Origin: Rhodanobacter lindaniclasticus
Lineage (GTDB): Bacteria > Pseudomonadota > Gammaproteobacteria > Xanthomonadales > Rhodanobacteraceae
Reading direction: 5' to 3'
Assembly (NCBI RefSeq): GCF_004799035.1
Contig: NZ_MWIO01000031.1
Coordinates: 48,171-112,170 of the forward strand
DNA: 64,000 bases
The notes beneath the pieces are model-generated. The model saw only the letters and a list, made by a program, of their open reading frames with translations. It was not told the origin of the DNA and ran no database searches. A program made the translations under genes and the position numbers. This document shows positions 21,403 to 46,606 of this stretch, in pieces. Position 1 is the stretch's first letter. Each line of letters begins with the position of its first letter.

Positions 21403-22497
21403 ATGGCACGTCCCGCCGGCATGATCGGCCTGCACTCCTCTCCCGCGGCGGTGGCGGCGGGGGATGATCCGCGCTACACCGCCGCGGAGTTTCCCACCAA
21501 CAAACTGCTGTACCTGACCCAGCTGGCGGATGCGTGCGGGATCGACTGCCGCACGTGGTTCGGCGGGCTGGCGCTGAACCGCGCCCAGCTGGCCGACCCC
21601 GCGTTGCGGGTTTCCTATCGCCAGGCGGCCACCTTCGTGCGGCGGGCGCTGGCGGCACTGCGCGCGGCGGGGGTGGCCGACGCCGGGCTGCGCATCGGGC
21701 GCGAGGGCACCATCGGCGGCTTCGGCCTGCTCGGGCTGGCGATGATGACCGCGCGCACCTTCGGCGAAGCCATGCAGGCCGGCATCGCCCATCACAAGAT
21801 CTGCGGCTGCCTGCTCGACCTGGCGTTCGAGGCGGTGGACGAACGCACCGTCGCGCTCACCGCGCTGCCGTTGTTCGACGACGTCGAACTGCTGCCGTTC
21901 TTCTGCGAGGAGCTGTTCGCCAGTTCCACCATGATCGCCCGCGAACTGATCGGCCCGGCGTTGCGTCCGGTGCGGCTGGAACTGGCCTACCCGCGCCCGG
22001 CCTATGCCGAGAAGTACCGTGCCTTGTTCGATTGCGAGGCGCGTTTCGATGCACCGCGTTGCCGCCTGCTGATCGACGTGCAGTGGCTGCCGCACCCGTT
22101 GCCCGGCTACAACCCGCTCACCGCGAAGCAGGCGCTGGCCCTGTGCGCGCAACAGCGCACGCCGGACGGCGGCGAGCCGCACCAGGAGATCGTCGCCGCC
22201 GTGGAACGGCTGCTGCGCAGTCGGCTGGCGCAGCAGCCGAAGCTGCACGAGGTGGCGCACACGCTCAACCTCAGCGAACGCTCGCTGCGCCGCAAGCTGG
22301 CCGAGAGCGGGCGGATCTTCCGCGACATCCACGATCGCGTGCGCGCCGAACGCGCGCTGCAGTTGCTGCAAGCGGGCACGTTGAGCGTGGCGGACGTCGG
22401 CAGCGCGGTGGGTTTCAACGACCCGCGCGAGTTCCGGCGGGCGTTCAAGCGCTGGACCGGGATGCCTCCGCAGGAGGCGAGGCGCGCCGGCGGCTGA
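21403..22497 (+). CDS. AraC-family transcriptional regulator
   Basis: A 364-residue regulator of the ArgR/OruR-like AraC subgroup. An N-terminal Arabinose_bd-type ligand domain (about 30-240) is followed by two helix-turn-helix motifs at the C-terminus (about 275-360: VAHTLNLSERSLRRKLAE and VADVGSAVGFNDPREFRRAFKR). The ATG at 21403 has GGAG 10 nt upstream. It lies between putA and the beta-helix/cytochrome/receptor cluster on the same strand. A pair of direct repeats immediately downstream, in front of that cluster, makes the cluster its most likely target, with putA as an alternative. No ligand can be predicted. Confidence 0.9.
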   Translation: MARPAGMIGLHSSPAAVAAGDDPRYTAAEFPTNKLLYLTQLADACGIDCRTWFGGLALNRAQLADPALRVSYRQAATFVRRALAALRAAGVADAGLRIGREGTIGGFGLLGLAMMTARTFGEAMQAGIAHHKICGCLLDLAFEAVDERTVALTALPLFDDVELLPFFCEELFASSTMIARELIGPALRPVRLELAYPRPAYAEKYRALFDCEARFDAPRCRLLIDVQWLPHPLPGYNPLTAKQALALCAQQRTPDGGEPHQEIVAAVERLLRSRLAQQPKLHEVAHTLNLSERSLRRKLAESGRIFRDIHDRVRAERALQLLQAGTLSVADVGSAVGFNDPREFRRAFKRWTGMPPQEARRAGG

Positions 22498-22504
22498 TCG
22501 AATA

Positions 22505-22543
22505 GGCCGGTTTGCCCCCCGTAAGCTGGCCGCTTTGCCCTCC
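22505..22543 (+). promoter_or_regulatory. Tandem direct repeats, candidate AraC-type operator
   Basis: Two 16-bp copies, 22505-22520 and 22528-22543, agree at 14 of 16 positions (core CCGNTTTGCCC) with a 23-bp period, about two helical turns. They start 8 bp after the AraC gene stop and 70-108 bp before the beta-helix gene, the geometry expected for an AraC-family activator. Confidence 0.5.
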
Positions 22544-22612
22544 CCTTGCCGGCCGGAATGGGCGAGAGTCGGGGCCATCGACGCGACGCTCTTCACACGG
22601 GGGAACCGGACC

Positions 22613-23848
22613 ATGCGCACGCTGCTCATCTCCATCGCGCTGACGGCCGCACTGGCCGGCTGCGGCAAACACGAGGCGCCGCCGCAAACCACCGCCGACG
22701 GCAGTTTCGAAGCCAAGCTGCAGGAGCAACTGCTGGACGCCAAGCCCGGCAGCGTGATCGAGATCCCCGCCGGCCATTACCACCTCAAGCGCGGCCTCAG
22801 CCTGCGCACCGACGGCGTCACCATCCGGGGCGCCGGCATGGACAAGACCGTGCTCTCGTTCAAGGGCCAGGTGGTCGGCCCCGAGGGCCTGCTGGTCAAC
22901 GCCAGCGACTTCACCATCGAGAACCTGGCGATTGAGGACAGCAAGGGCGACGCGCTGAAGATCAACCAGGGCAGGAACATCACCATCCACGGCGTGCGCA
23001 TCGAGTGGACCGACGGCCCGAAGACCACCAACGGCGCCTACGGCCTGTACCCGGTGAAGACGCAGAACGTGCTGATCGAGGACTCCGTGGTGATCGGCGC
23101 GTCGGATGCCGGCATCTACGTCGGCCAGTCGGACAACATCATCGTGCGCAACAACCGCGCCGAGCACAACGTGGCCGGCATCGAGGTCGAGAACTCCACC
23201 CGCGCCGACGTCTACGGCAACACTGCCACGCAGAACACCGGCGGCATCCTGGTGTTCAACATGCCCAACCTGTCCAAGGAAGGCCACAGCACGCGGGTGT
23301 TCAAGAACAAGGTCTTTGCCAACAACCTGGGCAACTTCGCCGCCAAGGGCGCGGCGGTGGCCAGCGTGCCGGCGGGTTCGGGCGTGGTGATCAACTCCAA
23401 CGACAAGGTGGAGATCTTCGACAACGACATCGCCGACAACCAGACCGCGAACATCATCATCGCCAGCTATTTTTCCACCAACTACTACAACACCCGCGGC
23501 GTGGCGGCGAGCTACAACCCGTACCCGAAGGGGATCTACGTGCTCGACAACCGCCTCAAGGGCGGCGGCGATTCGCCCGACGGCATCAAGCTGAAGACAC
23601 TCAAGACCGCCATGTACGGCCTCACCGGCAGCTTCCCCGACGTGCTCTGGGATGGCTACGTCGACAGCAAGACCCTGGTCGACGGCCTGCCGCCGCCCGA
23701 CGACCGCATCTGCCTGCAGGGCGTCAACGGCGTGCTCGATGCCGACGGCCCGCATGACTACAAGAACCCGGCCACGGACATGAAGCCGTTTGTCTGCACC
23801 CTGCCCCGGCTGCCGGCGGTGACGCTGAATCCCGAGCCGAAGGTCTGA
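22613..23848 (+). CDS. Parallel beta-helix repeat lipoprotein (TIGR03805-like)
   Basis: A 411-residue lipoprotein: signal peptide and lipobox LAGC at residue 17, then a right-handed parallel beta-helix with many short repeats built on N-x-x-V/I and G-I-x-V turns (for example IENLAIEDSKGDALKI, VIGASDAGIYVGQS, NRAEHNVAGIEVEN). Such helices bind or cleave polysaccharides, but no catalytic triad of pectate lyases is obvious. The family is known to occur beside an HNE_0200/SO_2930-type protein, as here. ATG at 22613 follows GGGGGAA at good spacing. It is the first gene of a probable operon with the diheme cytochrome, TonB receptor and aldehyde dehydrogenase. Confidence 0.85.
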   Translation: MRTLLISIALTAALAGCGKHEAPPQTTADGSFEAKLQEQLLDAKPGSVIEIPAGHYHLKRGLSLRTDGVTIRGAGMDKTVLSFKGQVVGPEGLLVNASDFTIENLAIEDSKGDALKINQGRNITIHGVRIEWTDGPKTTNGAYGLYPVKTQNVLIEDSVVIGASDAGIYVGQSDNIIVRNNRAEHNVAGIEVENSTRADVYGNTATQNTGGILVFNMPNLSKEGHSTRVFKNKVFANNLGNFAAKGAAVASVPAGSGVVINSNDKVEIFDNDIADNQTANIIIASYFSTNYYNTRGVAASYNPYPKGIYVLDNRLKGGGDSPDGIKLKTLKTAMYGLTGSFPDVLWDGYVDSKTLVDGLPPPDDRICLQGVNGVLDADGPHDYKNPATDMKPFVCTLPRLPAVTLNPEPKV

Positions 23849-23888
23849 GGAATGTTTCAAGTATTTCCGGTCACTGCAGGAGCGCATC

Positions 23889-23960
23889 CTGTGCGCGATG
23901 CTCTTCGTCACGTCACCCACAAACATCGCGCACAGAGCCTGCCCCGGACTCGATCCGGGG
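23889..23960. repeat. Dispersed palindromic repeat element in a gene leader
   Basis: A perfect 12-bp inverted repeat (23889-23900 with 23924-23935) is followed by a second hairpin with a 7-bp stem (CCCCGGA/TCCGGGG, 23942-23960). The second part matches the palindrome often scattered between genes in proteobacteria and read through as LDPGVR-type peptides. It separates the beta-helix stop codon from the signal peptide of the diheme cytochrome. Confidence 0.6.
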
Positions 23961-25114
23961 GTGCGCTCGTGCAGGGTTTCGCGCTGCTGCTCGCATTGCT
24001 GCTGGCCGGCTGCCAGCGCGGCATGCAGCCGGTGGCGTTCCATGCCGAAGGCCGCCCGGCCAAACTCAGCGACTGGCACGTGGTCGAGGTGCATGACGGC
24101 CAGCTGCAACTCAACGACGGGGTGGTGCCGTACGACCTCAACACGCCGCTGTTCACCGATTACGCGCACAAGCTGCGCACGATCTGGATGCCCAAGGGCG
24201 CGAGCGGCAAGTACCAGCCGGTGGACACGCTCGACTTTCCGGTCGGCACGGTGTTCAGCAAGACCTTCTATTACCCGCGTGCCGCCGACGGCAAGTTCAG
24301 CGACGTGGCACGCACCGCGGATTACTCGCGCGACTTCGCCGGCCAGGGCCTGGAGATGGCCAACGTCCGGCTGATCGAGACACGCATCCTGGTGCATCGC
24401 CAGAACGGCTGGGAAGCGATCCCGTACGTGTGGAACGACGCGCAGACCGAGGCCACGCTGGCGCGCACCGGCGCGGTGCTGCCGCTGACCCTGGTCGCCG
24501 CCAGCGCACGGGACGGTATCCCGGCGCGCGAGGATTTCAACTACGTGGTGCCCGACGAAAGCCAGTGTGCCAGTTGCCATGCGCAGGACTGGATCGATCG
24601 CAAGGTGCATCCGATCGGCCCGAAGGCGCGGCACATCAACAAGAACTACCTGTATGCCGATGGCGAGCACAACCAGCTCGAGCACCTGGCCAAGGTCGGC
24701 TATCTCGGCGGCGTGCCGGCGCTGGCCACGGTGCCGCGCGACGTCGACGCCGGCGATCCGAAGGCGCCGCTGGATGCGCGCGCACGCGCCTGGCTGGACA
24801 TCAACTGCGGGCATTGCCACAACCCGAACGGCGCGGCCAACACCACCGGCCTGTCGCTGATCCACGGCACGCCCGAGAATCACGAACTGGGCATCTGCAA
24901 GCCGCCGACCGCCGCCGGCCAGGGCACCGGCAACCACTTCTTCGACATCGTGCCGGGCCAGCCGGATGCTTCGATCATCCCGTACCGGCTGACCTCGACC
25001 GAGCCCGGCACGATGATGCCGGAGATCGGCCGCAGCACGGCCGACCACGAAGCCATCGCGCTGATCAAGGCGTGGATCGCGGCCATGCCCGGTACCTGCA
25101 CCGTGCTGCACTGA
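23891..25114 (+). CDS. SO_2930/HNE_0200-family diheme cytochrome c lipoprotein
   Basis: About 407 residues. A signal peptide with lipobox LLAGC is followed by a long beta-rich domain and two c-type heme motifs, CASCH and CGHCH, in the second half. The family (TIGR03806-like, SO_2930) is uncharacterised but nearly always sits beside the parallel beta-helix protein. Likely a periplasmic or outer-membrane redox lipoprotein. The start is uncertain: a GTG at 23891 has AGGAG 8 nt upstream but gives a 40-residue leader containing a dispersed repeat; a GTG at 23969 would put the Cys at residue 15; an ATG at 23852 has no proper ribosome site. The frame after the lipobox is secure. Confidence 0.82.
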   Translation: MRDALRHVTHKHRAQSLPRTRSGGALVQGFALLLALLLAGCQRGMQPVAFHAEGRPAKLSDWHVVEVHDGQLQLNDGVVPYDLNTPLFTDYAHKLRTIWMPKGASGKYQPVDTLDFPVGTVFSKTFYYPRAADGKFSDVARTADYSRDFAGQGLEMANVRLIETRILVHRQNGWEAIPYVWNDAQTEATLARTGAVLPLTLVAASARDGIPAREDFNYVVPDESQCASCHAQDWIDRKVHPIGPKARHINKNYLYADGEHNQLEHLAKVGYLGGVPALATVPRDVDAGDPKAPLDARARAWLDINCGHCHNPNGAANTTGLSLIHGTPENHELGICKPPTAAGQGTGNHFFDIVPGQPDASIIPYRLTSTEPGTMMPEIGRSTADHEAIALIKAWIAAMPGTCTVLH

Positions 25115-25175
25115 ACCGACAAACGACCGCCGCGGCGCATGGGTCGCGGCCATTCCATGCAACGGGGAGCACGGC

Positions 25176-27671
25176 ATGAACCTTCGTCAACGTCCACTTT
25201 CGACCGCGCTGCGCGGCTTGCTGTTCGGCGGCATGGCGCTGCTGCTGTGCGCCCCGCTGGCGGCGCAGACGAATACGAACACGGACGGCACCGCACCGGT
25301 CCCCGCCACGACCACCGCGGCGAACGCGGATCGGCCCACCGAGCTGGGCACCATCACCGTCACCGCGCAGAGCCGCAGTCAGCAGATGCAGTCGGTACCG
25401 ATCGCGCTGCAGATCGTCACCGCGCGGCAGATCGACACGCTGGCGGCCACCGACCTCAGCAAGATGAGCCTGTTCGTGCCCGGCCTGGTGGTCAGCGCCA
25501 ACCAGCCGACCCAGCCCAACTACGAGTTGCGCGGCATCAGCACCGACGACTTCGGCGTGGGCACCGAGTCGGCGGTGGGCGTGTATGTCGACGGCGTCTA
25601 TGCGGCGCGCTCCGGCGGCGCCCTGCTGGCATTCAACGACATCCAGCGCATCGAAGTGCTGAAGGGCCCGCAAGGCACGCTGTTCGGCCGCAATGCCGCT
25701 GCCGGCGCCATCTCGATCGTCACCAACGAACCCAGCGACAAACTGGAAGGCAAGGCGCGCATGCGCCTGGGCAACTACGGCAAGCGCTACGGCGACTTCC
25801 TGCTGAACCTGCCGCTCAACGCGGACATGGCCCTGCGCTTCAGCCTGTTCGACAACCAGAGCCACGGCTGGGCCCGCGACGCGGCCACCGGCAAGCGCTA
25901 CGGCCAGGACAACGACCGCGGCGCGCGCGGCGTCTACCGCTGGAACATCACGCCGAACACCCGCGTGCTGTGGTCGTGGGACCACGAGGAACTCAAGCAG
26001 CCACCGCAACCCGCCTTCGGCCTGATCCCGGCGTCGGCGTGGTCGGTGCGGCCAGACCCGAACGCCGGCGTGCCGAGTCCACCGTATCCGGCCAACCCCG
26101 CGCAGTACCTGAACCCGCTGCATGCGCCGCTGTACAACGACGCGGTCGGCGCGGCCGAGAGCCGTCGCTTCGACGGCTCCACCCTGATCGTCGACCACAG
26201 CTTCGGCTGGGGCAGCCTGACCTCGACCACCGCGTGGCGCAATTTCGACACCTTGAACCTGGGTGATTACGACGGTACCAACCAGCGCACCACCTACCTC
26301 GACACCGCCAACATCGAGCACAACAACAGCTGGTACCAGGAGTTCAAGTTCGCCGGCAGCACCGACCTGATCGACTGGGTGGCCGGTACCAGCTGGTACA
26401 GCGAACAGGCGCGCCAGACCAGTCGCACCGACGTGTTCACCGACAGCATCGACACGCTGGCGCTGAACGTGGGCGGCGCCAGCTACGCCGACACCTTCGC
26501 CGGTTTCGATTCGCTGCTGAAGTTGTTCGGCCTGCCTTACTCCGTGCTGGGCGCGCCGTGGCGCGAGCAGATCGAAAACCATGGCCGCTTCAAGGCGTAC
26601 GCCTTGTACGGCGACGTGATCTGGCATCTGGGCGACAAGCTCAACCTCACCACCGGCCTGCGTTACACCCGCGACCAGAAACGCTTCTCGTGGTTCAACC
26701 CGCAGCGCAGCGCGCCGGAACTGGACCAGACCATCGACGCGCTCGACGCGATGGGCTTGCTCGCGCTGGCCGGCGTCAATCCCGACGCGTTCCGCCAGAA
26801 CCTGATCTTCAACCCCGCCAGCGGCGCGCCGGTGGGCGTGCTGGTGCAAGGCAGGAACACCTGGAACGACCTCAGCCCGCGCGTGGTACTGGACTACGCG
26901 TTCAGCCCGGACGTGATGGTCTACGGGTCGGTCACCAAGGGCTACAAGGCCGGCGGCTACAACAGCGTGCAGGTCGGCTCGCACTTCGCGCCGGAGAAGG
27001 TGCTCAACTACGAGGCCGGCATCAAGAGCGTGTTCCCCGGCCCCAACCTGCTGCTCAACGCCAGCACCTATTACTACCGCTACGACAACCGCCAGTCGCT
27101 CACTCTCGACCCGAACAGCACCGGCTCCGGCGTGCCGCGCTACCTGGTGGCGAGTACCGACCAGCAGGCCCACGGCGTCGAAGTGGAGCTGCAATGGCAA
27201 CCGAACACGGCGTTCCGGCTTGGCGTCAACGGCGCCTACATCGACGCCACCTATCGCAACGCCACCGCACCTTCCGGTGCCAGCCTGGACGGCCAGCCCA
27301 CCGGCGAGCCGAAGTATTCGTTCGCCGCACACCTGGCCTATACCTGGCACGACGTGGCCGGCGGCGCGCTGCAATTCGACCTCAGCCATGCCTATCGCGC
27401 CCCGTCCCGCTGCAACAACGACTCGCAGTTGCAGGGCACCTGCCAGATCAGCCCCAATTTCCAGGTCGGCTCGGCGCGCCAGATCACCGACGCGCGACTG
27501 GGCTGGAGCGCGGCCGACGACCAGTGGGGCGTGGCGCTCTATGGCACCAACGTGTTCGACAAGCGCTACGTCGACGGTGTCAACAACATCACCACCAGCG
27601 TGTTCGGCACGCCGTTCGCCAGCGTCACGCCACCGCGGATGTGGGGCGTCGAGCTGCGTGCGCGCTTCTGA
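25176..27671 (+). CDS. TonB-dependent outer-membrane receptor
   Basis: An 831-residue outer-membrane transporter. The signal peptide ends near AAQT; the plug domain (about 55-165) contains ITVTAQSR, PGLVVSANQPTQPNYELRG, VGVYVDGVY and VLKGPQGTLFGRNAAAG; a 22-strand barrel follows and ends in the terminal Phe needed for Bam recognition. It resembles the broad family that imports carbohydrates, aromatic compounds or siderophores; no Fe-siderophore genes are nearby. ATG at 25176 with a GGGGAG site upstream. It follows the diheme cytochrome by 61 bp and likely imports the substrate of this cluster. Confidence 0.95.
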   Translation: MNLRQRPLSTALRGLLFGGMALLLCAPLAAQTNTNTDGTAPVPATTTAANADRPTELGTITVTAQSRSQQMQSVPIALQIVTARQIDTLAATDLSKMSLFVPGLVVSANQPTQPNYELRGISTDDFGVGTESAVGVYVDGVYAARSGGALLAFNDIQRIEVLKGPQGTLFGRNAAAGAISIVTNEPSDKLEGKARMRLGNYGKRYGDFLLNLPLNADMALRFSLFDNQSHGWARDAATGKRYGQDNDRGARGVYRWNITPNTRVLWSWDHEELKQPPQPAFGLIPASAWSVRPDPNAGVPSPPYPANPAQYLNPLHAPLYNDAVGAAESRRFDGSTLIVDHSFGWGSLTSTTAWRNFDTLNLGDYDGTNQRTTYLDTANIEHNNSWYQEFKFAGSTDLIDWVAGTSWYSEQARQTSRTDVFTDSIDTLALNVGGASYADTFAGFDSLLKLFGLPYSVLGAPWREQIENHGRFKAYALYGDVIWHLGDKLNLTTGLRYTRDQKRFSWFNPQRSAPELDQTIDALDAMGLLALAGVNPDAFRQNLIFNPASGAPVGVLVQGRNTWNDLSPRVVLDYAFSPDVMVYGSVTKGYKAGGYNSVQVGSHFAPEKVLNYEAGIKSVFPGPNLLLNASTYYYRYDNRQSLTLDPNSTGSGVPRYLVASTDQQAHGVEVELQWQPNTAFRLGVNGAYIDATYRNATAPSGASLDGQPTGEPKYSFAAHLAYTWHDVAGGALQFDLSHAYRAPSRCNNDSQLQGTCQISPNFQVGSARQITDARLGWSAADDQWGVALYGTNVFDKRYVDGVNNITTSVFGTPFASVTPPRMWGVELRARF

Positions 27672-27730
27672 CCCGGCCGACGGCGTTCGCCGTTTGCGTG
27701 CATGCTGCAGGACCTGTCCCGAGTAACGCC

Positions 27731-29146
27731 ATGACCACCGACCACGTTTCCACGCTCACCGACAGCCTGCGGCTGCTGCGCGCCGCGCAACGGGCGCAAC
27801 CGATGCCCGACTGGACCGTGCGGGCCGCCCGGCTGCGTGCACTGCAAACGCTGCTGCGCGAGAACCGCGAGCGCATGGTCGAGGCCATCCATGCCGATTT
27901 CGGTTGTCGGCCGCGGGAAGAAACGGAGTTGCTGGAGTTCTTCCCCAGCCTGTCGGCGATCCGCCACGCGCTGGCCCACGGCCGGCGCTGGATGAAGCCG
28001 CGGCGGCGGCTGGCCGATTGGCTGTTCCTGCCGGCGCGCACCGAGTTGCGGCCGCAGCCGCGCGGCGTGGTCGGCATCATCGTGCCGTGGAATTACCCGC
28101 TGTATCTGGCCGTCGGCCCGCTGGTCGACGCGCTGGTCGCCGGCAACCGCGCCATGGTGAAGATGAGCGAATTCACCCCGCGCTTTTCAGCGCTGCTGGC
28201 GGAACTGGCCGGGCGGTATTTCAAGCCTGACGAAGTGGTGGTGGTCACCGGTGACGCCGAGGTGGCGCAGGCTTTTTCCGCGTTGCCGTTCGACCATCTG
28301 CTGTTCACCGGCTCCACCGCCGTCGGCCACCACGTGATGCGCGCGGCGGCGGCCAACCTCACCCCGGTGACGCTGGAGCTGGGCGGCAAGTCGCCGGCCA
28401 TCATCGGCCCCGGCGCGCGACTGGAGCACGCCGTGGAACGCATCATGGTCGGCAAGCTGCTCAACGCCGGGCAGACCTGCATCGCGCCGGACTACGTGCT
28501 GCTGCCACGCGCACGCATGGCGGAGTTCATCGAGCTGGCCGGCAAGGCGGTGGCGCGGATGTATCCGCAACTGCAGCAGAACGCGCAGTACGCCAGCATC
28601 GTCTCGGACCGCCAGTACCAGCGCCTCGCGGCGCTGCGCGACGAAGCACAAACCGCCGGCGCGCACGTGCACGTGCTGGGCGAAGCCACGGAGGATCCGG
28701 CGCGCCGGTTGCTGCCCCCGCAGTTGCTGACCGAGGTCGACGACGACATGGCGGTGATGCGCGAGGAGATCTTCGGCCCGTTGCTGCCGCTGTTGCCGTA
28801 CGACACGCTGGACGAGGCGATCGCGCATGTCGCCGCCCACGCGCACCCGCTGGCGCTGTACCTGTTCGAGGACGACCCGGCGCGCATCGACCAGGTGCTG
28901 GCATGCACCCACGCCGGCGGCGTCAGCGTCAACGACACGCTGTACCACATTGCCCAGCACGGCCTGCCGTTCGGCGGCGTCGGCGCCTCGGGCATGGGCG
29001 GCTACCACGGCCAGGCCGGCTTCCGCACCTTCTCGCACTTCAAGCCGGTGTTCCGCCAGGCGCGCTGGAACGGCGCCGGCCTGCTCAACCCGCCGTACGG
29101 CGCGCGCTTCCGGCGCCTGCTCGACCTGCTGCTGCATCGCGGCTGA
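27731..29146 (+). CDS. Aldehyde dehydrogenase, coniferyl-aldehyde dehydrogenase type
   Basis: A 471-residue NAD(P)-dependent aldehyde dehydrogenase. Features: VPWNYPLYLAV, the nucleotide-binding FTGSTAVG, catalytic Glu in LELGGKSP, catalytic Cys in NAGQTCIAPDYVL, and EEIFGPLLPLL. The length and the C-terminal FSHFKPVFRQ place it with coniferyl-aldehyde and class 3-like dehydrogenases that lack a long C-terminal extension and often act on aromatic or medium-chain aldehydes. ATG at 27731, with only a weak GAG upstream, 59 bp after the receptor gene. It is the last gene of the cluster, closed by a strong hairpin terminator, and suggests that an aldehyde arises in the pathway. Confidence 0.92.
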   Translation: MTTDHVSTLTDSLRLLRAAQRAQPMPDWTVRAARLRALQTLLRENRERMVEAIHADFGCRPREETELLEFFPSLSAIRHALAHGRRWMKPRRRLADWLFLPARTELRPQPRGVVGIIVPWNYPLYLAVGPLVDALVAGNRAMVKMSEFTPRFSALLAELAGRYFKPDEVVVVTGDAEVAQAFSALPFDHLLFTGSTAVGHHVMRAAAANLTPVTLELGGKSPAIIGPGARLEHAVERIMVGKLLNAGQTCIAPDYVLLPRARMAEFIELAGKAVARMYPQLQQNAQYASIVSDRQYQRLAALRDEAQTAGAHVHVLGEATEDPARRLLPPQLLTEVDDDMAVMREEIFGPLLPLLPYDTLDEAIAHVAAHAHPLALYLFEDDPARIDQVLACTHAGGVSVNDTLYHIAQHGLPFGGVGASGMGGYHGQAGFRTFSHFKPVFRQARWNGAGLLNPPYGARFRRLLDLLLHRG

Positions 29147-29163
29147 TTTTCTTTCACGCACAA

Positions 29164-29191
29164 AAAACTCCCCGCCGAAGCGGGGAGTTTT
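29164..29191. terminator. Strong bidirectional Rho-independent terminator
   Basis: A perfect 12-bp stem with a CGAA tetraloop and flanking A and T runs that form part of the stem. It serves both the aldehyde dehydrogenase gene (+) and the FadL-type gene (-), which converge here. Confidence 0.92.
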
Positions 29192-29217
29192 CTTGTGCAG
29201 TTACCGCAGGCAGGGCG

Positions 29218-30714
29218 TCAGAACTTGTACATCGCCGAGAAGCTGAGCAGGTTGCCGTAGTCGTCGAAATTGCCGGTCAGCGTGTCGCCGGTGCTGTTGG
29301 TCAGCGAGACGTGCGCGTTGTTGACGAAGATGTGCGCGTACGACGCGTTGATCTCGAAGTTTTCGCTGGCCTTGTAGCCGATGCCGACGGTGGCCATCTT
29401 GCGGGTGGAGTCGGGCACGCGCGGGCTGCGGGTCTTCTCGTAGGTCGGGCTGCTGTCGACCGCGACGCCAGCGCGCAAGGTCAGCTTGTCGTTGACGTAG
29501 TAGTCGCCGCCGATCGAGGCGTACACGGTGTTGCGCCAGTTGTACGGCTCCGACGTCTGCGGCTGCGAGTTGCCGTAGTTCACCGTCAGGTTCTTGAACA
29601 CGTCCCACTTGGTGTACGCCACGTCGGCGCCGAGGCCGTACTTCTCGCCCTGGTGCCAGTAGCTCACGCTGGCCACGGCGGGCGTGGTGAAGTCGGCGGT
29701 GCCGGTGGTGTGCGAGAACGGCGGAATCGAACTGGCCAGCGCCGGGTTGGCCAGCAGCAGGTCGTAGCCCGGCGTGGTGGTGAAGTTGCCGGTGCCCTGC
29801 AGGCGATGGCTGATCTTGGCACGGTAGTTCAGGGCCAGCTTGTCGTTCGGGGTCAGCTTCCAGAAGCCGCCCAGCTGCCAGCCGTAACCCCAGTCGTCAC
29901 CCTTGATGCGCGCATAGCCGTCCACGCCCGGGGGCGTCACCGCCGCCACGCCGGCCGCGGCTGCCTGGCCCTGCTGCACGGCCGCCTGGATCATCGCGGC
30001 ACCCTGCGCCGCCGGGATCTGGCCGGCCGCGATGGCCGCCTGGATCTGCGCCACACCGGCGGCAGTCTGCGCACCGATGGCCTGCTGGATGCCGAGGCCG
30101 ACGGCGTTGAAGTTGACCGCACTGGTCAGCTCCGCGCTGGTCTTCTGCGCGATGAAGCTGGCGCCGAGGCTGAAGTTGTCGGTGACGTCGAACGATGCCG
30201 ACAGCGTCGCGTCGAGTGACTGGAACTTGGACTTGAGGCCGTGGTAGCGGCCGACCCAGTCTTTGTCGTACTCGGTCTGGAAGCCGAACGGCACCGAGAA
30301 ACCGCCGCCCACGTGCACGCGGTCGCTGACCTGGGTGGCAAAGAACAACGCCGGAACGGGCAAGGTCGTGCCGGCGTCACCGCCGTTGCCGCCGCTGATC
30401 GGGCGGCCCAGCACGTCGTGTGCACTGCCTTCGAACTTGGCGCTGAAATTGATGGCGGTAACGTCCGCCTGCAGGTAGGTGCCCTTCAACTCGGACATCG
30501 CGGCCGGGTTGTTGACCACCACCGAAGCATCACCACCGGCGGTGGCGGAGCCGGCGAAGGCGCGGCCCAGGCCCTTGGCGCTGTTTTCCTTGAGCTGGAA
30601 CGCGCTGGCATTCGCGCTCACGGGCGCAACCAGGGCACCCACGATCGCCATGCTCAGCGCGGCGAGCGCCAGTGGACGGGCAGCGCCCGTGAGGGAACGG
30701 AAAGACGTGTGCAT
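29218..30714 (-). CDS. FadL/TodX-family outer-membrane hydrophobic-compound channel
   Basis: A 498-residue outer-membrane barrel for uptake of long-chain fatty acids or aromatic hydrocarbons. After the signal peptide (ending about SANASA), the mature N-terminus AFQLKENSAKGLGRAFAG and the conserved NNPAAMSEL hatch motif are typical of FadL; the chain ends in MYKF. ATG at 30714 is chosen because AGGAG lies 6 nt upstream; a longer frame to 30777 has no such site. An Ala/Gln-rich insert of about 50 residues lies between the strands near residues 215-265 and is unusual for FadL. It converges on the aldehyde dehydrogenase gene. Confidence 0.92.
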   Translation of the reverse strand: MHTSFRSLTGAARPLALAALSMAIVGALVAPVSANASAFQLKENSAKGLGRAFAGSATAGGDASVVVNNPAAMSELKGTYLQADVTAINFSAKFEGSAHDVLGRPISGGNGGDAGTTLPVPALFFATQVSDRVHVGGGFSVPFGFQTEYDKDWVGRYHGLKSKFQSLDATLSASFDVTDNFSLGASFIAQKTSAELTSAVNFNAVGLGIQQAIGAQTAAGVAQIQAAIAAGQIPAAQGAAMIQAAVQQGQAAAAGVAAVTPPGVDGYARIKGDDWGYGWQLGGFWKLTPNDKLALNYRAKISHRLQGTGNFTTTPGYDLLLANPALASSIPPFSHTTGTADFTTPAVASVSYWHQGEKYGLGADVAYTKWDVFKNLTVNYGNSQPQTSEPYNWRNTVYASIGGDYYVNDKLTLRAGVAVDSSPTYEKTRSPRVPDSTRKMATVGIGYKASENFEINASYAHIFVNNAHVSLTNSTGDTLTGNFDDYGNLLSFSAMYKF

Positions 30715-30965
30715 CGCTGGCTCCTGCATGATGTTTGGGACCGCTCGAGTGGTGGCTGGTACGGCTGAGAAGAACAATTTTCATACGCGCGTTTGAACTT
30801 CCTGCGGAGGACTCTGCCCTCTCGGACAAGGCGTTGCAAGTGCGCTCGCAACAAGTTAATAACAAATACGGCCGCCGGGTCGGCAAAAACCCGCGCGCCG
30901 GCTAGCCGGCCGGCGCTGGTACTCTCGCTTTCCGGGCGTCCGCCTCGCCCCACCACGGTGCTGCC

Positions 30966-31259
30966 ATGCAATGTTTCGTCTATGCCAGTCTGTCCAAGGC
31001 TGACACCTATCTGTGGCTGGCCGAACGCGACGCGTTCGGGATACTGCCCGAGCCACTGACCCTGATGCTCGGCGAACTGCGCTTCGTGATGGAGGTGCAG
31101 CTGACCCTGGAGCGCAAGTTGCCGGTGGAAGACACCCGTCAGGTGCTCGAGCACCTGCGTGCGCAAGGCTGGCATCTGCAATTGCCGCCGCAGGAGACGC
31201 TGGCTGCCGCCAACCATCCCGCTTATACGCACTCGCCGCGGAATGATCGGGAGGAGTGA
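30966..31259 (+). CDS. YcgL domain-containing protein
   Basis: A 97-residue protein with the conserved YcgL core: MQCFVYASLSKADTYLWL at the start and the alternating segments FGILPEPL and LEHLRAQGWHLQLPP. YcgL proteins are small cytoplasmic alpha/beta proteins of unknown function that are widespread in gammaproteobacteria, often beside minC or rnd. Neither is adjacent here. The ribosome-binding site is weak. The 251-bp gap toward the divergent FadL-type gene is AT-richer than its surroundings (TTAATAACAAATAC at 30856-30869) and probably holds both promoters, but I cannot define them. Confidence 0.85.
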   Translation: MQCFVYASLSKADTYLWLAERDAFGILPEPLTLMLGELRFVMEVQLTLERKLPVEDTRQVLEHLRAQGWHLQLPPQETLAAANHPAYTHSPRNDREE

Positions 31260-31330: not shown

Positions 31331-34300
31331 ATGACCCAGACCAAATCCCGCCGCCGCCCTCCCTTCCTGCATGCGCTGGCCTGGTTCATTCCCGGCTTGC
31401 TGGCCGTGGCGCTGGCCGGCTTGACCACCCACCCGCTGACCCTGATCCCGCTGCTGCTGGCCAACGCGCTGACCATGGCGGCCATCTGCCACGCGATCGG
31501 CTTCGATCCGGAACCGAGCTTCACGCGCACCGTGCTGCGCCGCGGCGCCGCGCACCTGGTGATGTTCACCGGCTATACCGTGCTGGTATTCGTGCTGGTG
31601 GCCTGGCCGATGCTGCAACTCAGCCACAGCCCCAGCCTCAGTGCCGCGCTGCTGCTGGCCGCCGCACTGGTGCTGGCGCTGGTCTCGCTGTGGCGGCTGT
31701 GGCCGGCGTTCGGGCTGGTGTTCGTGTGGGACGACGCCTACCCGCCGCAGCGTGACGGTTCGTGGATCTTCACCGCCACTCTGCGCAGCATGGCGTTCGG
31801 CCGGCACCTGTCGCGCGAGGAGCGCTTCTTCACCCATTTCGTGCCCGCGGCGCTGTGCCTGCTCGCACTGGCCTTCAGTGCGATCGCACTGACCGGACTG
31901 GTGGGCATGCTGCCGGAGGAAATGCGTCTGGCGGCGCTGGCGATCTACGCGCTGGTGATCCTGCCGCTGGCCTGCCTGGTGGTGGCCAACCGCACCCTGC
32001 GTGCGATGCTGTGCGAACGCCATCGGCCGCGTCGCCGCAGCGACGCCGACCCGGTCGCCGCCGAATTTCCGCGCCCCGTGCTGAGCGAACCGGAACGCAC
32101 CGCCGGCACGCCCGAACAGGCCGCCGCGCTGCTGACCGCCACCCGTGCCGGCGACATCGAACGCGCGCTGGCCCTGCTGGAAGTGGGCGCCCCCTGCGAC
32201 ACCGTGCCGCAGCCCGACGACCGCGACCAGCGCCCGGTGCTGATGCTGGCGGCGCTGCTGCCCGACACGCGCCTGCTGCGCGCGCTGATCTCCCGCGGCG
32301 CCGACGTCAATCGCGCCAGTGGTGGACTCACTCCGCTGCTGGCGGCCACCCGCGACAGCTGGCACGGCCGCGCCGAAGCCGTCCTGATGCTGCTCGCCAA
32401 CGGTGCCAGCCCGCTGGCCACCGACGCCGACGGCAACACCCCGCTGCACGGCGCCGTGCTCAGCGCCGACGCCGGCGTCGCGGCGATGCTGCTCGATGCC
32501 GCCGCCCCGATCGACGCACTCAACCAGGCCGGCCTGAGCCCGCTGGCCACCGCCTGCCGCGCCGCCAACTGGACGCTGGCGAAGTTCCTGCTCGAACACG
32601 GCGCCAAGCCGGCCCCGGCCGGCGGCGAACCCGCCCTGGTCGCCGCCGCCACCATCACCGATGACGACCCGACCGGCGTCGCCCTGCTGCTCAAGCACCG
32701 CGCCGCGGTCAACGCCCTCGACGCGCGCCAGCGCCATGCCCTGCTCGGCGCCGCCGCCGAAGGCCACGAGCGCATTGCCCGCGCGCTGTGCGACGCCGGC
32801 GCCGACGTCAAGCTGGCCGACGAACACGGCAGCACCGCGCTGATGGAAGCTGCGCGTGCCGGCGCCAGCGGCATCGTGCAGCGGCTGGCCGAAGCGAAAG
32901 CCAACGCGCTGGCCCGCGACCAGCATGGCCGCGATGCACTGATGCTGGCCTGCCAGTCGCCGCACGCCGATGCCGCCACCGTCCGCGCCCTGCTCGAACT
33001 GGGTGCCGACGCCAGGGCCACCGGTGGCGACGGTCGCAGCGCCCTCGATCACGCCACCGCCTCCGGCCGTTGGGATCTGGTTGCGCTACTGGATCCGGAT
33101 ACGGCGCTGCCCGCCAACCTCAGCCACGACCTGCTGGACGAAGGCGCCGATACGCCGCAGCACCTGCTCGACGCGCTCCGCTTCGGCCACTGGGCTACCG
33201 TGTCCGCCTTCGGCGAGCGGGTGCAGTCCTGGCCGCAAGCCGACCTGGCCCGGCTCTACCTGGAACTGGCTACGCCGGGGCTGGGTGCGGCGAGGCGCTG
33301 GCTGCTGGACCACGGCCTCGCCGTCGAGGCCCGGCTGGAAGCGCCACGCGTCGACGAGCCCGACACCGGCGACGCGCACACCCAGGAGCCGCTGGGGCGA
33401 CGCCTGTTCGACGCCCTGCTCGAACGCCTGCCCGACGCCACCGAAGCGATCGATGACCTGCTGCAGGCCGGCGCCAGCCCCGCTGGTTGCGGTCTGCTGG
33501 CCGCGGCCCTGGTGCAGCTCGAAGGCGCGGCCCAGGCCACCGCGCTGCCACTCGGCCTGCTCGAGCGCGGCGCCGATCCGTTCGGCCCGGACACGAACCA
33601 GCGCACGCCACTGCACCTGGCCGCCCGCCACGCACACGGCGACCTGCTGCAGGCGCTGCTGGCGCGTGGCTGCGACCCCAACGCACGCGACGGCGACCAA
33701 CGCACGCCGCTGTTCGCCGCGCTGGAACACGGCGCTGCCGCGCTGCCGCTGGTGCGCAGCCTGATCGCCCACGGCGCCGACCCGGAAGCGGCCGACACCC
33801 ACGGCGAAACGCCGCTGGGGCTGGCGCTGGAGCACCCCGCGCTGGAGCGCTGGCTGGACTGGCGCGACTGGCCGTTGCCGCAGCGCCCGCTGCGCAGCAC
33901 TGACTTGCCCGCCGCCGCCGCTGCCGGTGCGCTGGCCGCAGTGCAGCGTCTGCTGCAACTGGGCTTCGCCGTCGACACCCGCGACGAGCAAGGCGCCACC
34001 GCGCTGCTGCGTGCCTGCGGTGCCGGTCATCGCGACGTGGCCGCCTGCCTGCTCGACGCCGGTGCCGACCCCGGTCTGCCTGCGCACAGCGGCGTCACCG
34101 CCCTGGTCGCCGCGGTCAGCGCGCGGCGCGAAGCGCTGGTGGCCCTGCTGTTGCAACGCCAGGTGGCCGTCGACCAGCGCCTGCCGAACGACGCCACCGC
34201 CCTGATGGTGGCCGCCGCGCTGGGCTACCCGGACATCGCCGAACAACTGCTGGCCGCCGGCGCCGAGGTCAAGGCGGTGGACAGCTCCGGCCGCAACGCA

Positions 34301-34765
34301 CTGCACGCCGCCGCCCAATTCGGCTTCGAACACAACGACAGCCTGCGCACCCGCCGCCTGTTCGACAGCCTGCTCAAGCACGGCGCCGAGATCAACCACG
34401 CCGATCGCGAAGGCAAGACCCCGCTGCTGCTGCTGCTGGGCGCGCAATTGCCGCCCGGCAGCGATGGCGACGCCACCCACCTGGGCGCGCTGGTGCCGCC
34501 GTTGCTCGATGCCGGCGCGCACGTCGCCCACGCCGACCAGCGTGGCGTCACCGCGTTGCACGCCTGCGCCATGCACGCCCTGCTCGCCCCGGCCCGCGTG
34601 CTGCTCTCGCGCGGCGCCGACCGCCAGGCCACCGACGCCTTCGGTCGCACCGCCGCCGAAGTGGCGCGCCAACTCGGCTTCATCGACATCGCCCACGAAC
34701 TCGGCGCGCGCAGCAGCCAGGCGATTCCCAGCGTGCGGCAGACGCTGCGGCAACCGGCGGAGTAG
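31331..34765 (+). CDS. Giant membrane-anchored ankyrin-repeat protein
   Basis: A 1144-residue protein. The first ~230 residues carry about six membrane helices in three pairs (PFLHALAWFIPGLLAVAL, LIPLLLANALTMAAI and others), similar in layout to small integral-membrane scaffolds. From about 255 to 1130 it is made of roughly twenty ankyrin repeats, recognisable by G-x-TPL-x-x-A and LL-x-x-GAD units; some, in the middle, are degenerate. Ankyrin arrays bind proteins, so a cytoplasmic scaffold tethered to the inner membrane is the simplest reading. Homologues occur in Xanthomonadales, function unknown. ATG at 31331 has no ribosome site but follows a -10 box directly. It converges with the kef gene with a 15-bp gap. 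Confidence 0.85.
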   Translation: MTQTKSRRRPPFLHALAWFIPGLLAVALAGLTTHPLTLIPLLLANALTMAAICHAIGFDPEPSFTRTVLRRGAAHLVMFTGYTVLVFVLVAWPMLQLSHSPSLSAALLLAAALVLALVSLWRLWPAFGLVFVWDDAYPPQRDGSWIFTATLRSMAFGRHLSREERFFTHFVPAALCLLALAFSAIALTGLVGMLPEEMRLAALAIYALVILPLACLVVANRTLRAMLCERHRPRRRSDADPVAAEFPRPVLSEPERTAGTPEQAAALLTATRAGDIERALALLEVGAPCDTVPQPDDRDQRPVLMLAALLPDTRLLRALISRGADVNRASGGLTPLLAATRDSWHGRAEAVLMLLANGASPLATDADGNTPLHGAVLSADAGVAAMLLDAAAPIDALNQAGLSPLATACRAANWTLAKFLLEHGAKPAPAGGEPALVAAATITDDDPTGVALLLKHRAAVNALDARQRHALLGAAAEGHERIARALCDAGADVKLADEHGSTALMEAARAGASGIVQRLAEAKANALARDQHGRDALMLACQSPHADAATVRALLELGADARATGGDGRSALDHATASGRWDLVALLDPDTALPANLSHDLLDEGADTPQHLLDALRFGHWATVSAFGERVQSWPQADLARLYLELATPGLGAARRWLLDHGLAVEARLEAPRVDEPDTGDAHTQEPLGRRLFDALLERLPDATEAIDDLLQAGASPAGCGLLAAALVQLEGAAQATALPLGLLERGADPFGPDTNQRTPLHLAARHAHGDLLQALLARGCDPNARDGDQRTPLFAALEHGAAALPLVRSLIAHGADPEAADTHGETPLGLALEHPALERWLDWRDWPLPQRPLRSTDLPAAAAAGALAAVQRLLQLGFAVDTRDEQGATALLRACGAGHRDVAACLLDAGADPGLPAHSGVTALVAAVSARREALVALLLQRQVAVDQRLPNDATALMVAAALGYPDIAEQLLAAGAEVKAVDSSGRNALHAAAQFGFEHNDSLRTRRLFDSLLKHGAEINHADREGKTPLLLLLGAQLPPGSDGDATHLGALVPPLLDAGAHVAHADQRGVTALHACAMHALLAPARVLLSRGADRQATDAFGRTAAEVARQLGFIDIAHELGARSSQAIPSVRQTLRQPAE

Positions 34766-45853: not shown

Positions 45854-46606
45854 ATGAGTTTTCGCTCTGCTGGTTTTCGGCCCGCCGCGCTCGGGTCCGC
45901 CCTGGCTCTCGCGCTGGCACTGTCCGCTACGGCCGTGATGGCCCAGGAAGCGCCGGCTCCCGCCGCCTCTGCGAGCGCCGCAGCGCCGGCTCCGGCCAGC
46001 GTGGCCGACGTGGCCGTCAAGCCGGGTGATGCCGCCGCCGGCCAGGCCAAGGCCGCCGTCTGCGGCGCCTGCCACGGCATGGACGGCAATTCCGCCGACG
46101 CGCAGTACCCGAAACTGGCCGGGCAGAGCGAGCAGTACATCGTGCGCCAGCTGACCGACTTCAAGTCCGGCCAGCGCCAGAACCCGATCATGCTGGGCAT
46201 GGCCACCCCGCTGTCGGTGCAGGACATGCACGACTTGGGCGCCTATTTCGCCAGCCAGAAATCGCGTCCGGGCGTGGCCGACCAGGCGCTGGTCGAGCCC
46301 GGCGAGACCCTGTTCCGCCAGGGCGACAGCACGCGCGGCATCCCGGCCTGCATGGCCTGCCACAGCATCGACGGCCGCGGCAACCCGGGCGCGATGTACC
46401 CGCAGCTGGCCGGCCAGCACGCGCAGTACGTGGAGGCCACGCTGAAGGCCTGGCACGACGGCACCAGTTGGGGCACCGACACCCGCTCGCAGATCATGCC
46501 CGCGATCGCCGCGAAACTTGACGCCAGGGACATCGCCGCGCTGGCCAGCTATATCGAAGGCCTGCACTCCGCCGAAAGCGAGCCCGCAGCTGCCGCCACA
46601 CCCTGA
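45854..46606 (+). CDS. Diheme cytochrome c4
   Basis: A 250-residue periplasmic cytochrome with a signal peptide ending near MAQEA, an Ala/Pro-rich linker, and two homologous heme domains, with CGACH and CMACH. Each has a downstream Met ligand (MLGMATPLS; QIMPAIAAKL). The internal duplication and YPKLAGQ/YPQLAGQ signatures identify cytochrome c4, which donates electrons to terminal oxidases, here plausibly the oxidase encoded 30 kb away. ATG at 45854 follows GGGAG. It is followed by two dsbA-like genes on the same strand (65 and 60-bp gaps), which fits shared thiol and heme maturation chemistry. Confidence 0.94.
   Translation: MSFRSAGFRPAALGSALALALALSATAVMAQEAPAPAASASAAAPAPASVADVAVKPGDAAAGQAKAAVCGACHGMDGNSADAQYPKLAGQSEQYIVRQLTDFKSGQRQNPIMLGMATPLSVQDMHDLGAYFASQKSRPGVADQALVEPGETLFRQGDSTRGIPACMACHSIDGRGNPGAMYPQLAGQHAQYVEATLKAWHDGTSWGTDTRSQIMPAIAAKLDARDIAALASYIEGLHSAESEPAAAATP

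Follow-up and report, generated by a model that had tools for sequence, protein, structure and literature searches.

The window analysed here is a stretch of 64,000 nucleotides from Rhodanobacter lindaniclasticus (contig NZ_MWIO01000031.1, positions 48,171 to 112,170 of the forward strand). Its positions 21403..29146 hold five genes, all on the plus strand, among them a pair encoding a predicted beta-helix lipoprotein and a predicted diheme lipoprotein. Our analysis indicates that this diheme protein is likely related to the cytochrome P460 enzymes, a kinship so far overlooked. The five-gene layout and the families assigned in the original prediction, which was made from the sequence of the window, are borne out by Pfam and TIGRFAM scores, and the features of the locus are as follows.

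21403..22497, plus strand: AraC-family regulator with Arabinose_bd and HTH_18 domains (Pfam PF12625, 122.3 bits; PF12833, 69.8 bits)
22504..22544, plus strand: predicted operator of two direct half-sites (upstream alignment)
22613..23848, plus strand: predicted beta-helix lipoprotein, TIGR03805 (425.1 bits, curated cut-off 141.5)
23969..25114, plus strand: predicted diheme lipoprotein, TIGR03806 (381.6 bits, curated cut-off 313.3)
24260..24262, plus strand: Lys98 codon of the diheme protein, at the position of the P460 heme-crosslink lysine
25176..27671, plus strand: TonB-dependent outer-membrane receptor (TBDT; PF07715, 68 bits; PF00593, 118.8 bits)
27731..29146, plus strand: class-3-type aldehyde dehydrogenase (ALDH; PF00171, 289.5 bits)
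about 29158..29198, plus strand: hairpin resembling a terminator, located between ALDH and the convergently oriented fadL (folding energy)
29218..30777, convergent to the five genes: FadL (PF03349)

The reading frame of the diheme gene is open from 23852, and its lipoprotein-like signal starts at the GTG at 23969. The protein comprises a P460-like N-terminal domain (approximately residues 21-250, with CXXCH at 200-204) and a C-terminal c-type heme domain (CXXCH at 280-284). Its structure model (predicted local distance difference test, pLDDT, 85.5; predicted template modeling score, pTM, 0.85) displays a P460-type beta-sheet arrangement in the first domain, the first 15 entries in a structural alignment of this model were all P460 or c'-beta proteins, and profile-profile comparison with P460 gave 87.6-96.2%. 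We consider it highly probable that the first domain has the P460 fold. Apart from a similar beta-sheet fold, the diheme protein has in common with the P460/c'-beta superfamily (PF16694; NeP460, McP460, and NsP460) a CXXCH near the domain end and the motif FPxGTxxxK with a lysine at the crosslink position. According to passages of a 2025 review (PMC11928373), K106 of NsP460 lies in this motif, as the P460 crosslink lysine. Lys98 of the diheme protein aligns by profile with FPxGTxxxK of the P460 profiles and thus provides the lysine looked for at the crosslink position of the cytochrome P460 superfamily; lysine occupies this position in 61/61 distinct sequences from two alignments and in all nine fused or second domains, one of which is also among the 61. 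A candidate for the distal carboxylate (Glu96/Asp102), at an uncertain alignment register, is Glu137, which is present in 61/61 sequences and eight of the nine fused or second domains and sits in a strand after Lys98 in the model. A heme-lysine crosslink, and a reaction at this heme, might be expected of the diheme protein.

The diheme protein departs from P460 and c'-beta proteins in its longer loops, its lipoprotein-like signal, and its additional c-type heme domain; some of its relatives are fused to beta-helix or glucose/sorbosone dehydrogenase (GSDH) domains, and it scores below the PF16694 cut-off. At E values up to 10, 18 of 42 members matched PF16694 (best E, 4.7e-4) without reaching the gathering cut-off, and the window's protein did not match; for this reason, we call it P460-like and do not file it in PF16694. 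No match to CCP_MauG (PF03150) was found in it at E 0.001 (0.099 at best), Foldseek alone returned nothing significant for it, and a sequence search against solved structures retrieved no significant relative of either the diheme or the beta-helix protein.

Both window proteins exceed the curated cut-offs of the TIGR03805/TIGR03806 (SO2930-family diheme) models, whose names carry no function, in agreement with the original prediction. A literature search by title and abstract found no treatment of the function of this pair, and its relation to P460 is proposed here. Passages of the above review describe the P460 fold as unique to two families, cytochromes P460 and c'-beta (PMC11928373). If TIGR03806 represents a third P460-fold family, the known examples would greatly understate how common P460-type hemes are, since TIGR03806 exceeds its cut-off in 37 of the 398 genomes sampled from the phylum. 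A widespread protein pair with no function assigned to it would then gain a chemistry testable by colour: reduced, lysine-crosslinked P460 hemes absorb near 450-462 nm, as opposed to 431-434 nm without the crosslink, and oxidised P460 absorbs at 434-442 nm in NeP460 and NsP460 and at 419 nm in McP460 (passages of PMC11928373).

TIGR03805 and TIGR03806 are a true pair, as stated in the original prediction. TIGR03805 exceeded its cut-off in 45 of the 398 genomes and, by coordinates, was adjacent to or fused with TIGR03806 in all 37 genomes with TIGR03806 over its cut-off. In G078 and G193 (G numbers denote genomes and L numbers loci of our collection), the beta-helix protein includes, by fusion, a TIGR03806 domain scoring below cut-off, and in the remaining six genomes, the neighbour of the beta-helix is a CCP_MauG diheme. 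Thus, 45/45 over-cut-off beta-helix genes accompany a diheme protein, which belongs to one of two different families. In the second type of cluster, the window-type diheme is replaced by a MauG-type one, and the scanned beta-helix proteins (L160-L164) end in a cytochrome c domain (weak Pfam matches). Five of these six loci (L159, L161-L164) contain a small two-heme cytochrome and a TBDT, and an AraC-type gene was confirmed by Pfam in all three loci tested (L161, L163, L164). Three of the seven MauG-type dihemes were scanned, and their best NCBIfam models were MbnH (TIGR04039) and MauG. A MauG-type set with AraC and no TBDT listed is also present on the Ruegeria pomeroyi megaplasmid. This locus of the second cluster type (L168:5897-11260), near the bhc genes, encodes AraC, a c-type cytochrome, a CCP_MauG diheme, a tetratricopeptide repeat (TPR) protein, and a beta-helix protein whose C-terminal part contains a cytochrome-like stretch.

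Three giant proteins that were scanned carry the TIGR03806 domain directly behind a GSDH domain, which we take to be of the pyrroloquinoline quinone (PQQ) type. The TIGR03806 domain is therefore combined with a sugar-oxidising enzyme as well as with a sugar-enzyme-like beta-helix. A second TIGR03806 gene occurs near a fused beta-helix/diheme gene (L121:11318-12565), directly behind it in G330 and approximately 1.5 kb off in G216.

The prediction of two lipoproteins is upheld by the cysteine of the lipoprotein-like signal, a residue conserved in 90% or more of the 42 sequences aligned for each family; a simple lipobox pattern matched 78/80 beta-helix and 65/80 diheme proteins. The structure model of the beta-helix protein offers an AlgE-like right-handed beta-helix fold. 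Asp152 and His154 of AlgE4, which we take to be the catalytic residues of this mannuronan C5-epimerase, align with Tyr146 and Val148 of the window's protein and with Phe and Gln in the second beta-helix type. Judged by this alignment, the beta-helix protein differs from AlgE-type mannuronan C5-epimerases in the residues presumed to be catalytic, and because these are replaced within an AlgE-like fold, ligand binding rather than epimerisation would be its role. Across both beta-helix types (24 sequences), 27 columns are invariant, including two Tyr and no Trp, His, Met, or Cys. The NosD models of Pfam and NCBIfam match the window's protein weakly, and a WD-40 match, which consists of repeated sub-threshold stretches, was rejected. 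Elsewhere in the genome of the window (G000:C78:30844-31440, L166), a second, weak TIGR03805 match of 35.8 bits possibly represents a NosD-type protein.

The five-gene-type arrangement recurs in other loci far above chance. Our locus counts are based on the best 80 of 431 places from one protein search of the genome collection, grouped by hand, according to record titles, into 48 Rhodanobacter/Dyella-type loci (L041-L087 and L117, including Frateuria, Fulvimonas, Pinirhizobacter, and Dokdonella), 10 Lysobacteraceae-type loci (one an unplaced metagenome-assembled genome), 7 other Lysobacterales-type or unplaced loci, and 14 Microbulbifer loci, with L089 left out. The beta-helix gene lies immediately 5' of the diheme gene in 48/48 Rhodanobacter/Dyella-type loci, and in 42 of these, the pair is immediately followed by a TBDT and then an ALDH gene. 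A TBDT gene is directly 3' of the pair in 10/10 Lysobacteraceae-type loci, none of which has an ALDH relative, and follows in 7/7 loci of the next group, with ALDH in one. Two of these seven, L088 (a 5.8-kb contig) and L101 (Rudaea), are Rhodanobacteraceae by NCBI taxonomy; both have the TBDT, no ALDH was seen in either, and counting both, ALDH follows in 42/50. Relatives of the window's AraC, TBDT, and ALDH over the thresholds used were found in 0/14 Microbulbifer loci. An AraC relative is present somewhere in 44/48 Rhodanobacter/Dyella-type loci, directly upstream in 28, and is divergent and next to the pair in 10/10 Lysobacteraceae-type loci. By these counts, AraC, the pair, and the TBDT are a Lysobacterales set, and ALDH looks like a mostly Rhodanobacter/Dyella-type addition.

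Across the phylum, neighbours were counted in 41 of the 45 TIGR03805 genomes, which are related and hence non-independent; G090, G284, G216, and G075, for which no long locus was retrieved, were left out. With a profile made here, a TBDT was detected within 4 kb of the TIGR03805 gene in 14/41 genomes, compared with 3.55 expected from per-genome TBDT counts; a single family accounts for 6 of the 14, the profile missed at least one case (L131), and the BLAST count was 12/41. An ALDH relative was near the pair in 2/41 genomes and a FadL relative in 1/41 (BLAST). The original prediction had called for a survey of the transporters and dehydrogenases accompanying the pair, and had named unrelated neighbours in most genomes as speaking against its pathway. 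Such a survey thus finds the TBDT in Lysobacterales and neither TBDT nor ALDH relatives in 14/14 Microbulbifer loci, and outside Lysobacterales, unrelated neighbours are largely the rule (27/41 genomes without a TBDT within 4 kb).

Alignment of the regions upstream of the beta-helix gene yielded the half-site consensus TGGCCGnTTTnCCCYCCC, which the window contains at 22504-22521 (two mismatches) and 22527-22544 (none), at a spacing of 23 bp. With up to 3 mismatches and in the 350 bp preceding the beta-helix gene, at least one half-site was found in 49/49 loci (the window and the 48 Rhodanobacter/Dyella-type loci), including those where araC lies some kilobases off, and both half-sites, 22-23 bp apart, in 26/49. 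The half-site was also found in 7/10 Lysobacteraceae-type and 5/7 other Lysobacterales-type or unplaced loci; it was absent from all 14 Microbulbifer loci, which are without an AraC relative, and from the remaining locus (L089). The background at 3 mismatches was 28 other places in 1,654,266 bases, 3 of them elsewhere in the window, and the 17-base core GGCCGNTTTGCCCYCCC occurs with at most 1 mismatch only at the two adjacent window places in the whole genome. More than any other observation, this tandem repeat indicates that the cluster is controlled by the AraC gene, presumably through binding of its product, and together with the adjacent AraC gene of the conserved cluster, it agrees with the suggestion that the cluster has its own regulator. 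The regulator's nearest NCBIfam models, all below cut-off, were too broad to serve as a substrate clue.

A simple scan did not find a sigma-70-type promoter. The strong terminator proposed to end the cluster corresponds to the hairpin at 29158-29198 (-29.8 kcal/mol, z -7.1, equalled by 0/200 shuffles); the same scan did not list it, giving instead a weaker one at 29128-29143, and reported 7 terminator-like sites against 7.4 expected, i.e., no excess.

The best solved relative of the ALDH is 9nxl, a steroid aldehyde dehydrogenase (E 5.4e-100), its nearest solved relatives include proteins named steroid, fatty, and benzaldehyde dehydrogenases, and its best NCBIfam model, MdlD, scores 312.6 bits, below the cut-off of 550. 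These relatives are too broad to name a substrate. The convergent FadL porin had been read as a hint at a hydrophobic or aromatic substrate. This hint is weak: fadL is present in 30/48 Rhodanobacter/Dyella-type and 0/31 other grouped loci, and given this distribution, we regard it as chromosomal context. A FadL-like gene lies 70 bp from a distant fused protein (L139). In four Dyella loci (L072, L082, L084, L085), a block is inserted between the diheme and TBDT genes (L082:11146-17511) that encodes, with names assigned from sequence, a TetR-like regulator, an FGGY-like kinase, two aldolase-like proteins, a glutamate-semialdehyde-aminotransferase-like protein, and a major facilitator superfamily (MFS)-like transporter; being restricted to one subgroup, it was dropped as a substrate clue.

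We favour the reading that the two predicted lipoproteins form an envelope heme enzyme, in which the P460-like heme would be the reactive site, the c-type heme would serve as the outlet, and the beta-helix would bind the ligand, and give it an even chance. AraC would sense an inducer and act at the tandem repeat, and both proteins, given their lipoprotein-like signals, would probably reside at the outer membrane. The AlgE-like beta-helix may bind a ligand, and the P460-type heme may oxidise a substrate held on or near it, with the second heme passing electrons to the respiratory chain. Import of the ligand or product would fall to the TBDT, and ALDH might finish an aldehyde in bacteria of the Rhodanobacter/Dyella type. 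Oxidation at a heme protein, part of the original prediction, is made plausible by the P460-like domain of the diheme. With somewhat less assurance, we propose that TIGR03806 is a third, lysine-crosslinked branch of the P460 fold with a built-in outlet heme, which together with the AlgE-fold beta-helix would constitute a previously undescribed envelope oxidase class in Proteobacteria, and that elsewhere MauG/MbnH-type dihemes took over its job.

Since MauG/MbnH-type dihemes replace the P460-like diheme in the second cluster type, the strongest rival, which we nevertheless consider unlikely, is that the diheme is a maturation enzyme oxidising a side chain of the beta-helix protein, which then binds metal or acts as a redox cofactor, with the TBDT importing a metal complex. 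MbnH is a maturation enzyme for MbnP. Points in favour of this idea are the CCP_MauG partners (six genomes and the Ruegeria pomeroyi megaplasmid), the NCBIfam matches of these dihemes, and the weak NosD likeness of the beta-helix, and passages of PMC3621798 describe MbnH/MbnP (TIGR04039/TIGR04052) as likewise a diheme protein with a partner and frequently an adjoining TonB transporter. However, the MbnH matches reach 195-220 bits against a model cut-off of 362.85, the invariant beta-helix columns offer two Tyr but none of Trp, His, Met, and Cys, and a PF12625 AraC regulator with ALDH generally suits catabolism over metal uptake. The window's diheme also differs from MbnH and MauG in its lack of a CCP_MauG match and in its beta-helix partner.

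Less probable still is detoxification of hydroxylamine, nitric oxide, or peroxide by the P460-like heme in the periplasm, with the beta-helix as a scaffold. According to passages of PMC11928373, hydroxylamine oxidation is known for two of the three P460 proteins with structural characterisation, and a gas-binding role was proposed for c'-beta proteins. The genes surrounding the pair are unrelated in, for example, L126-L130; yet the linkage to AraC, TBDT, and ALDH in Lysobacterales and the GSDH fusions would be left unexplained. We rate as equally improbable the pathway of the original prediction, in which the cell surface would bind an alcohol of hydrophobic or aromatic character, the diheme would convert it to an aldehyde, and ALDH would oxidise this aldehyde after its import. 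The conserved TBDT and ALDH genes of Rhodanobacter/Dyella-type loci and the names of the solved ALDH relatives speak for it, as does a Novosphingobium plasmid with the pair amid TBDT, ALDH, and alcohol dehydrogenase genes. The scarcity of ALDH near the pair across the phylum, the unlinked FadL, and the lack of substrate evidence speak against it. Its gene set thus stands as a conserved Rhodanobacter/Dyella-type arrangement and not as a general one, and for these bacteria, a full catabolic pathway is possible.

On the Novosphingobium sp. EMRT-2 plasmid (L167:6042-9834), the pair-adjacent TonB receptor gene is annotated as two pieces flanking an IS5 transposase, and genes for a further TBDT, an ALDH, and an AraC regulator lie on the other side. 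Within the window, a 1144-amino-acid protein with many ankyrin repeats (31331-34765) adjoins a YcgL-domain protein (30966-31259); both genes also occur in loci of the Rhodanobacter/Dyella type and seem to be part of the chromosomal context. A separate 201-amino-acid protein with two cytochrome c stretches (46001-46606), unlinked to the cluster, is a conceivable electron acceptor.
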